Source: a virus
Strand: one strand, 5' to 3'
Virus record (IMG/VR): IMGVR_UViG_3300048687_000113
Span: 45,244-109,243 of that record
Length of the DNA: 64,000 bases
Position 1 is the stretch's first letter. Each line of letters begins with the position of its first letter. Made by a program: the position numbers and the translations under genes. The notes under the pieces are model-generated. The model ran no database searches. It was given only the letters and a program-made list of their open reading frames with translations, and was not told the origin of the DNA. Positions 3,315 through 6,397 of this stretch are shown one piece after another.

Positions 3315-3701
3315 TTAGCGCGTGCCCTCTGCTGCGGGCAGGGCCGGTGTCTGGGCGACGCGGCCCTTGCGGACGCGGCGGCGGTGCCGGCGCTCGGCTC
3401 GACGGTTTTCCTTCGGGTTCCATCCGAGAGGGTGGTGCCACGGCTTGCGGACGTTCACGCACTCGTCCGGGGCGTAGTAGCGCGGGTCGTCGGGCCGGGT
3501 GCGGGGACGTCGTGTGAGGCAGAGGCGGCAGGCGCTGAGGTTCTGGTCGTCGAGGTGGGTGCGGGCCCTGTCGAAGAAGTGGGCCAGGATCTCCGCGTCC
3601 CGCTGGGCCTGCTGTTCGGGGGTGAGCGGGGGGTGGGCGGCTCGGTATGCCTCGCCCCAGCGGGTGAGTAACTCGCCGACGGTGATGGTGTGTTGGCTCA
3701 T
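3315..3701 (-). CDS. Basic hypothetical protein with Cys motif
   Basis: A 128-aa protein. The N-terminal half (TVGELLTRWGEAYRAAHPP) is helical, followed by ACRLC and later DECVN, and then a strongly basic tail (NRRAERRHRRRVRKGR). It may bind nucleic acid or zinc, but no family is recognised. The ATG at 3701 is preferred over the GTG at 3737 because that GTG lies inside operator site A (3715-3736), which begins 13 bases upstream of the ATG. Expression is therefore probably operator-controlled. No clear Shine-Dalgarno sequence is visible. Confidence 0.6.
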   Translation of the reverse strand: MSQHTITVGELLTRWGEAYRAAHPPLTPEQQAQRDAEILAHFFDRARTHLDDQNLSACRLCLTRRPRTRPDDPRYYAPDECVNVRKPWHHPLGWNPKENRRAERRHRRRVRKGRVAQTPALPAAEGTR

Positions 3702-4095: not shown

Positions 4096-4229
4096 TGCTC
4101 CTCCTGGCTGGGATTTTGCGTCGCGTCGCCTGCCGGGGCGCAGGCTCCGCCGGCCCCATGTTGGGTGAAGTGCCTGCCCGTTGTCAGTCGTGCGTGCCAT
4201 AGTGGTTGAGCCGTCGGGAAGTTGGGCGG

Positions 4230-4605
4230 TCTCCCCGCGCGAGCGGGGGTGTACCGGTTGAAAGGCACGGCCGCGCTGTTGCCTGGATACTTTCCCCGCC
4301 GACGCGGGGGTGGTCCTTCTTTGTGTTTGATTGCAGGTAGGGATCTTGATTTGACCCCGCGCATGCGGGGATGGCTCGATTTCTAAGGGCATAGCACGAT
4401 GTTCCCCGCGCAAGCGGGGATGGCCCCGCAGTTGAGAGAGCCAGTACTTGCTCCCCGCACACGCGGGGATGGTCCTGTAGTCAAGAGGGCTGGTATTTGC
4501 TCCCCGCGCACGCGGGGATGCTCCGCTTCGGCGGAGGTGGATCGAAACGGCATCTCGTGAGAGGTCCCTGAAGATCTCAGAAAACCGCTCCGCACACGCG
4601 GAGGT
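4230..4605 (+). CRISPR. Degenerate type I-E-like CRISPR array of tetraloop hairpins
   Basis: Six units share C/T-TCCCCGC-N4-GCGGGGRTGG, close to the repeat type usual in actinobacterial I-E arrays. Stems begin at 4233, 4294, 4355, 4404, 4453 and 4502. Spacing is 61, 61, 49, 49 and 49 bases; 61 is the classical I-E period. Two more hairpins, CTCCGC/GCGGAG at 4521-4536 and 4588-4603, keep the stem by a paired C-G to T-A change. Tetraloops are GCGA, CGAC, GCAT, GCAA, ACAC, GCAC, TTCG and ACAC. No cas gene is in the window. It may be a decayed acquired array, a mini-array served by host Cascade, or a structured RNA. Confidence 0.7.
4521..4536. repeat. UUCG tetraloop hairpin within the array
   Basis: CTCCGC-TTCG-GCGGAG is a perfect 6-bp stem closed by a UUCG tetraloop, an exceptionally stable RNA fold. 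It starts three bases after the sixth array repeat and shares its stem with the eighth hairpin. Confidence 0.7.
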
Positions 4606-4681
4606 ACGCGGAAGGCTCGTCTCCTGGGGAGGCGGGCCTTTCGTCTTGCCTGGGATGTCGGGGGTGTTGGGGATGCGCGGT

Positions 4682-5397: not shown

Positions 5398-5458
5398 CCC
5401 CGCAGGTGTGTCGTCCTCCCCCGGCCGGCACGCCTGCGGGGTCTTTTTGTGTCTTTTT
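5398..5458 (+). terminator. Rho-independent terminator
   Basis: CCCCGCAGG (5398-5406) pairs with CCTGCGGGG (5433-5441), followed by the T-runs TCTTTTTGTG and TCTTTTTT. It ends the 4849-5365 transcript. Confidence 0.85.
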
Positions 5459-5503
5459 TCGCGGTGGGACGATTGCGGTCAAATGCCTTGTAAGGAGACC
5501 GGT

Positions 5504-6397
5504 ATGGCCGTGACGAGTTCCGCGACGTTGTCCGCTGGTGAAGTGCCGGCCGAGGTTTCGGTGGAGGTTGTTTCCGATACGAGCGTTCGGGTCTCCTGGA
5601 CGAGTGCGGAGGACCCGCTGGGCTTTGTCGTGGCGTGGTCGGTCGCCGGCGCGGAAGCCTGGACGGAGCGGCAGGTGTCGGGGGGCGCGCGGAGCCTGGT
5701 GGCGACGGGGCTGCGGCCGGGGACGGGGTACGTGTTCCGGGTGCAGTCCGAGTCGGTCTGGAGTACGGAGGCCGGCGCGGAGACGACGGGCTCGACGCTC
5801 GGGGCGCCCACGCTGCTCGTGGGCGACATCCTGGACCGCAACGCGAGTGTGAGTGTGCTGTCCCCATTCCTGGTGAGCCAGGCGCGTGTCGTCGAGGCGC
5901 AGGTGCGGGACACCCGGACGGACAGTCCCTGGTATTCCGTCTCGGATGTGCCGTGGAATCTGGCGGCGGTGGGTCTGTATGAGACGGGGTTCGGGCTGAA
6001 GGGGCTGTCGACGGGAACCACGTATGCGGTGCGGGCCCGGGTCACGGCCGGCGAGGTGGTGTCGGAGTGGTCGCCGGAGACGCGGTTCACGACGACTGGG
6101 ACCAGGAGTGGGAAGCCGAGCCTGTCGGTGGTGGCGGACTCGGCGACGTACAGCTCGGTGAAGCTGACGTGGGGGACGTCGCTGAAGGCGACGGTGCGGA
6201 TTCACCGGTGGGTCAGGTCGACGTCGCCGGGCTCTCCGTTCCTGTCGCAGCAGGTCGGGTATTCCACGGACCTGGCGGGGACATTCACGGACTCGGGTCT
6301 GTCCCAGGGGACGGACTATTGGTACACGGTCGAGTGGGTGCGGGATTCGCGGACGATCAGTGTTTCGAATCCTGTTGCTGTACGAACGCGGGGCTAG
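5504..6397 (+). CDS. Fibronectin type III repeat protein
   Basis: A 297-aa protein; ATG at 5504 with AAGGAG about seven bases upstream. At least three FN3-like units are visible. Each has a Trp in strand B (VRVSWTSAED; later VKLTWGTS) and a late Tyr motif before the next strand (LRPGTGYVFRVQSE; LSTGTTYAVRARV; LSQGTDYWYTVEW). Phage FN3 proteins usually sit on the virion surface and help bind host polysaccharide. There is no signal peptide. It is isolated from the late operon, between a terminator and a long gene-free segment, so it may be a moron-like gene expressed separately. Confidence 0.75.
   Translation: MAVTSSATLSAGEVPAEVSVEVVSDTSVRVSWTSAEDPLGFVVAWSVAGAEAWTERQVSGGARSLVATGLRPGTGYVFRVQSESVWSTEAGAETTGSTLGAPTLLVGDILDRNASVSVLSPFLVSQARVVEAQVRDTRTDSPWYSVSDVPWNLAAVGLYETGFGLKGLSTGTTYAVRARVTAGEVVSEWSPETRFTTTGTRSGKPSLSVVADSATYSSVKLTWGTSLKATVRIHRWVRSTSPGSPFLSQQVGYSTDLAGTFTDSGLSQGTDYWYTVEWVRDSRTISVSNPVAVRTRG

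Follow-up and report, generated by a model that had tools for sequence, protein, structure and literature searches.

Our analyses show that the window, by which we mean the whole stretch of 64 kb that was analysed (positions 45,244-109,243 of a 109-kb virus record), carries a stand-alone array made of a promoter-like element, degenerate type I-E CRISPR repeats and a terminator, a unit larger than the one described in an earlier note on this DNA. Its anatomy, its recurrence in phages, the mimicry of host repeats, the spacing of the units and the pattern of their handles are matters of observation. Judging from its sequence, the array looks like a panel imitating the repeats of different bacteria, and it is probably an RNA anti-CRISPR that occupies host Cascade, a reading that includes mixed decoy and guide modes and that overlaps with a purely CreR-like one.

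A stand-alone array in a phage genome

The virus record encodes terminase, portal, major head, tail sheath, tail and baseplate proteins and, upstream of the window, a serine-type integrase. The structural genes, including that of the tail sheath, together with the integrase indicate a temperate contractile-tailed phage. The record also codes for a DUF5753 regulator, of a family known from Streptomyces, which fits a putative actinobacterial host. A queuine tRNA-ribosyltransferase-like protein is encoded along with the serine integrase in the same record (L121:15229-17058; L122:2833-4554). Using Cas proteins of E. coli and Streptomyces as queries, cas genes were found neither in the window, in agreement with the earlier note, nor in the upstream part of the 109-kb record. 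The array is intergenic, and the genes immediately adjoining it have no function assigned to them; an FN3-domain protein encoded next to it (5408-6397) weakly resembles families of phage tail proteins. REP elements and tRNA-like elements were considered as identities of the array and rejected; the window contains no tRNA.

All eight hairpins listed in the earlier note are present between positions 4233 and 4603, each with a perfect 6-bp stem and a loop of exactly 4 nt, the stem being CCCCGC/GCGGGG in six and CTCCGC/GCGGAG in two of them, as had been described. The periods of 61, 61, 49, 49 and 49 given there were also recovered and are completed by start-to-start distances of 19 and 67, so that all seven distances equal 1 modulo 6. 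The exact pattern CCCCGC-N4-GCGGGG occurs six times in the 64-kb window, always inside the array, and the array region folds with a z of -4.8, none of 100 dinucleotide shuffles folding as well.

All features of the array lie on the plus strand. It is preceded by an extended -10-like promoter element, TGC-CATAGT (4195-4203), recognised by consensus only and not listed as a promoter by a sigma-70 scan. Its core, GTGCCATAGTGG, is also found upstream of the arrays in L064, L084 and L163, and analogous TGC-TAGCGT, TAACTT and TACGGT elements precede the first repeat in other arrays of the class. A 5' leader hairpin follows (GCCGTC..GGGCGG, about 4210-4230), paired in the computed fold and with counterparts (CGCCGGGAAACCGGCGG) in L084 and L163. 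At the other end, the computed fold places a terminator hairpin, GGAAGGCTCGTCTCC..GGCGGGCCTTTCG, at about 4610-4643, ahead of a short T run; a pattern scan did not list it.

Compared with the 23-nt cores of host type I-E repeats, repeat 1 (4228-4256; stem 4233-4248, loop GCGA, handle GTGTACCG) matches at 22 positions, repeat 2 (4289-4317; stem 4294-4309, loop CGAC, handle GTGGTCCT) at all 23, repeat 3 (4350-4378; stem 4355-4370, loop GCAT, handle ATGGCTCG) and repeat 4 (4399-4427; stem 4404-4419, loop GCAA, handle ATGGCCCC) at 21 each, and repeat 5 (4448-4476; stem 4453-4468, loop ACAC, handle ATGGTCCT) again at 23. Repeat 6 (4497-4520; stem 4502-4517, loop GCAC) has its handle shortened to ATG by the adjoining hairpin and matches at 22 positions, the end of its core overlapping repeat 7. 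The two final repeats are less host-like, with 19 and 17 matches: repeat 7 (4521-4544; CTCCGC-TTCG-GCGGAG, stem 4521-4536, handle GTGGATCG), whose handle and double-hairpin junction recur in L057 and L086, and the terminal repeat 8 (4583-4611; CTCCGC-ACAC-GCGGAG, stem 4588-4603), in which the handle is lost (GTACGCGG). Two spacers measure 32 nt, the first (4257-4288) beginning with 14 nt, GTTGAAAGGCACGG, common as GTTGANRRGCACGG to L057, L086 and L160, and the second (4318-4349) having no match in our target searches. Three spacers of 20 nt (4379-4398, 4428-4447 and 4477-4496) produce the 49-nt period, the latter two differing from each other by transitions only. The last unit has a 38-nt spacer (4545-4582) that forms a hairpin with a GUGA loop, with a GCAA-loop counterpart in L057 and L086.

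Recurrence in other viruses

The earlier note had named the lack both of homologous arrays in related phages and of RNA from either strand as evidence against its reading, and such arrays are present in unrelated actinophages. Viral contigs were scanned for two such hairpins and, separately, for spacings of 33-58; with a few annotated loci and some from host genomes added, filtering left a collection of 57 arrays with 201 repeats, chosen partly by spacing and including homologous arrays that are not independent of one another. The class includes the named Streptomyces phages Samy (L167) and ZL12 (L168; distances 61 and 49) and, from Streptomyces sp. MH60, a contig of 157 kb (L235), with which L057 agrees in length and array. 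The arrays of Samy (L167:3596-3661), just beyond a tRNA cluster, and ZL12 (L168:3829-3954) are intergenic and unannotated in their records. By BLAST, the array of the window, and not its flanks, was linked to L057, L086, L059, L064, L160, L215 and others; most of the flanking proteins lack a counterpart in the window, which gives the array the look of a cassette. An Rfam search gave only a sub-threshold match to CRISPR-DR28, and we found no description of this array class in the open-licence literature, an earlier description elsewhere being possible. REP-like intergenic palindromes (TGGAT-CCCCGC-N4-GCGGGG-ATGACG) of Proteobacteria and MAGs imitate type I-E stems and contaminate pattern searches; we saw them in L170, L171, L187, L210, L247 and other loci.

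Repeat mimicry, spacing and handles

Ordinary Streptomyces type I-E arrays share with the window array the stem, the loop set, the handle and, in part, the 61-nt period; a Cas6e-type hairpin and an 8-nt handle, by which type I-E is recognised, are both present by sequence match to host repeats. However, ordinary arrays have near-identical repeats and 32-nt spacers, whereas here only two of the seven distances are 61 and three are 49. The loops of adjacent repeats are identical in 1700 of 1747 pairs from ordinary host arrays as against 16 of 144 phage pairs, and in the window all neighbouring loops differ. Even so, repeats 1-6 carry the majority loops of real host I-E arrays, and repeat 2 is identical over its 23-nt core to a repeat of Streptomyces sp. 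NBC_00513 (L128). Since the six CCCCGC repeats combine real host loops with cores matching at 21-23 of 23 bases, they form a panel of host-repeat mimics and not one drifting repeat. The idea of the earlier note that the phage had repurposed an array, with selection acting on the hairpins, is strengthened by the homologues in unrelated phages and by compensatory stems, but its drifting loops turn out to be host-type loops in the six CCCCGC repeats. Among the 201 repeats, the second stem pair is C-G in 188, T-A in 11, T-G in one and A-T in one; because paired stems were required for detection, stem pairing is not an independent test of selection. It is extremely improbable that the phage simply captured a host CRISPR array now in decay: the repeats are indeed host-like, but all eight stems are perfect, the loops differ yet match the repeats of other hosts, and many phages have arrays of this design, complete with promoter-like element and terminator.

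The distances between repeats follow a pattern across the class. When spacing within 33-58 played no part in the choice of the set and every spacer family was counted once, 51 of the 72 short distances were 43/44, 49/50 or 55/56, where 16.6 would be expected (p about 1e-17). Most of this signal comes from 49/50, without which 12 of 33 distances lie on the remaining values (p = 0.005), and a 55-nt peak seen at first was partly due to REP-like palindromes and became weak after filtering. Given a 29-nt repeat, the spacers of the class measure 14, 20/21, 26 (and 32) nt. The Cas7 subunits of Cascade cover six nucleotides each, and these lengths would be steps of one Cas7. Type I-E Cascade stays partly active after truncation by 6 or 12 (PMC7296934).

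Non-terminal handles keep TG at positions 2-3 and CC at 6-7, and the terminal repeat loses both. The TG was part of the criteria by which arrays were selected; the CC, outside those criteria, is found in 87% of non-terminal and 23% of terminal repeats (Fisher p = 1e-17). The handle is therefore kept only in repeats that would lead into a crRNA. Directly after the last repeat, a strong hairpin is found across the class, with a median of -28.9 against -17.9 kcal/mol in random windows (p = 7e-15). A structured regulatory RNA or DNA element outside CRISPR, such as a leader, an attenuator or a protein-binding repeat array, would agree with the strong fold and the partly structured spacers, but it leaves unexplained the close match to host cores, the fact that only the last repeat has lost its handle and the 43/49/55/61 spacing, and we consider it improbable.

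Spacer families, handle pairing and target searches

Spacer families recur between unrelated phages, and in four conserved families it is mainly the first 14 nt that are retained. One, GTTGANRRGCACGG, is shared by the window, L057, L086 and L160, another, CGTTANGGGCANAG, by L057, L086, Samy and L215, and the families AGYYTNAGGGGY and GCTTGNTACTNNNAG occur in several contigs each. There is also a bias towards pairing between a spacer and the handle of its own unit. Measured as the mean Watson-Crick stem, complementarity to the own handle exceeds that to swapped handles (0/1000 with all units, 1/1000 with one unit per family), whereas host spacers in the same test are at the null, so that a handle-spacer hairpin belongs to the design in a share of the units. 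This pairing is a tendency and not a rule. In the window, that of the unit with the spacer 4428-4447 is retained in the next unit (4477-4496) through G-U pairs. Spacer position 6 covaries with the last base of the handle, as in GCCCT-CGTTA-AGGGC (L057) and GCCCG-CGTTA-CGGGC (Samy), and also in L215, and RNA structure therefore explains part of the variation at position 6. Variation at positions 6 and 12 had been considered as proof of Cascade base pairing, with its flipped-out base, and this argument is weakened by the same covariation.

The spacer search proposed in the earlier note gave no target in the phage records or Streptomyces loci examined. BLAST against 50,697 phage records and 72,556 plasmid records found no protospacers, and the window spacers gave nothing above noise against five Streptomyces cas loci and their own genome, Streptomyces possibly not being the host. 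These results bear on the idea that the array is a weapon against superinfection, whose crRNAs would cut rival phages through host Cascade and Cas3. Archaeal viruses are known to carry mini-arrays directed against other viruses (reviewed in PMC11656645), which, like the array described here, are virus-borne, have few repeats and lack cas genes; the two full-length 32-nt spacers of the window also suit such a role. However, the repeats of viral mini-arrays are host-identical and their spacers are mostly directed against related viruses, whereas here the repeats differ among themselves and are not identical to those of one host, the spacers are mostly short, lack protospacers and recur between phages instead of diversifying. 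A weapon of this kind is highly improbable.

Cas promoters were searched with 99 guides over 143 promoter regions of 72 Streptomyces cas loci. As a set, the phage guides were not enriched at 9/10 matches (7 vs 4.3 +/- 2.0 shuffled); at 10/10, there were two matches vs 0.2 +/- 0.5 shuffled. The guides of the window had no cas-promoter match beside a PAM in the Streptomyces loci searched, which may not be those of its host, and no AAG-GTTGANRRGCACGG site exists in 150 Streptomyces genomes. Cas7e was not found in the assemblies of the array carriers MH60, G. macacae and S. violascens.

Proposed mode of action

If the array is a Cascade-occupying RNA anti-CRISPR, as seems probable, the phage would transcribe it from its own promoter as an imitation of type I-E pre-crRNA, which host Cas6e would cleave at every CCCCGC-N4-GCGGGG or CTCCGC/GCGGAG hairpin. 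The products would be short crRNA look-alikes, each a hairpin preceded by the 8-nt handle and a short pseudo-spacer, that would load onto Cas6e, Cas7e and Cas5e, leaving less immune Cascade and inhibiting immunity. The array would be polyvalent, single repeats copying those of different Streptomyces I-E lineages, which would explain how a broad-host phage meets hosts with differing I-E repeats. Some members might also, or instead, act as the host's CreR does and bring a Cascade with a short spacer to the cas promoter of the host. Against the anti-CRISPR reading stand the two window units that keep full 32-nt spacers, the negative target and enrichment searches described above and the array carriers in whose assemblies Cas7e was not found.

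The closest precedents for a decoy are the Racrs (Camara-Wilpert et al. 2023), of which RacrIF1 acts through competition for Cas6 and Cas7, forming subcomplexes that lack Cas5f and Cas8f for want of a handle (PMC10651486). By analogy with this missing handle, a handle masked by its spacer might exclude Cas5/Cas8-type subunits. A non-targeting crRNA alone lowers immunity (PMC10651486). Like the array described here, Racrs are phage-encoded intergenic mimics of host CRISPR repeats; they are transcribed, and type I-E members (RacrIE1 and RacrIE2) are known. Unlike it, a Racr is a solitary repeat, whereas the window has eight unlike repeats, ending in a terminal one, and units in which a handle is followed by a short, stereotyped spacer. 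RNA anti-CRISPRs have so far been catalogued as solitary repeats, and the Racr finder groups full matches within 100 bp as arrays and drops them (PMC10651486), so a multi-unit form, if common in actinophages, would have escaped notice. We tentatively suggest, with somewhat less than even confidence, that there is a widespread unrecognised class of such elements in actinophages, namely polyvalent mimics of the I-E repeats of multiple hosts, with Cas7-sized spacer steps and self-masked handles, that are cut into units yielding short non-immune Cascade.

CreR-like units in hosts and prophages

CreR is a cas-regulating crRNA-like RNA (reviewed in PMC12737573). It resembles the window units in being crRNA-like and encoded outside a main array, and it loads on Cascade, but its place is the cas locus of the host, whose own cas promoter it targets, whereas the window array is phage-borne, has several units and has no target found. 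As far as sequence can tell, the array would act like a Racr or a CreR and yet misses a defining feature of each, the solitary repeat of the former and the cas-locus position and target of the latter. CreR-like units of hosts and the window array both have short spacers between degenerate repeats, 14 or 21 nt in the former and 20 nt in three units of the latter. In the cas loci of Pantoea sp. BAV 3049 and B. ansorpii, such units have 21-nt spacers that are matched again, beside AAG, some 100 nt upstream. In Streptomyces sp. AC1-42W, an unannotated unit upstream of casA (L296:5588-5760) has a 43-nt period and a 14-nt spacer that matches the casA promoter region at positions 1-5 and 7-11, beside AAC. 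Streptomyces sp. NBC_00513 has unannotated degenerate repeats with a 66-nt period upstream of casA (L128:6165-6380), and the first 16 nt of a spacer there match a site close by that is flanked by AAG.

Pantoea sp. BAV 3049 carries a second mini-array, of two repeats (L278:1987-2055; L293:10005), 2.8 Mb away from the cas locus and inside a lambdoid prophage with cI-like, CII, O, DnaB-like, RusA and Q genes. Its 21-nt spacer, GTTACACCTTATTCTTGTTAT, is almost identical to the CreR spacer of the host itself and matches the cas-promoter site GTTACACCTTATTCTTATTCT at 19 of 21 positions, beside AAG. This mini-array is a candidate prophage-borne CreR, for which CreR-like guiding is well supported by these matches, and it suggests that phages can turn the CreR circuit of their host against it. 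The casA promoter of S. sabulosicollis (L301) contains AAG|CTTCTACGTCTC, to which the spacer CTTCTCCGTCTC of a mini-array in this species (L205, minus strand, about 3605-3670) corresponds at 10/10 guide positions after AAG.

These cases, the shared spacer lengths of 14 or 21 nt in Pantoea, B. ansorpii and AC1-42W, and the retention of mainly the first 14 nt or so in the four conserved spacer families favor a phage-borne CreR, each unit of which would guide host Cascade to a cas (or other host) promoter and repress it via about 10-16 PAM-proximal bases. The lack of guide enrichment in the 143 Streptomyces cas-promoter regions, the absence of AAG-GTTGANRRGCACGG from the 150 genomes and the tendency of spacers to pair with their own handle speak against it, and we regard a purely CreR-like guide as possible but rather unlikely. 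If the polyvalent class tentatively suggested above is real, its arrays may themselves have derived from the host's CreR brake on cas expression. Their relevance to Streptomyces genetics is indicated by type I-E Cas7e, which scored above the cut-off in 99 of the 296 Streptomyces genomes sampled.
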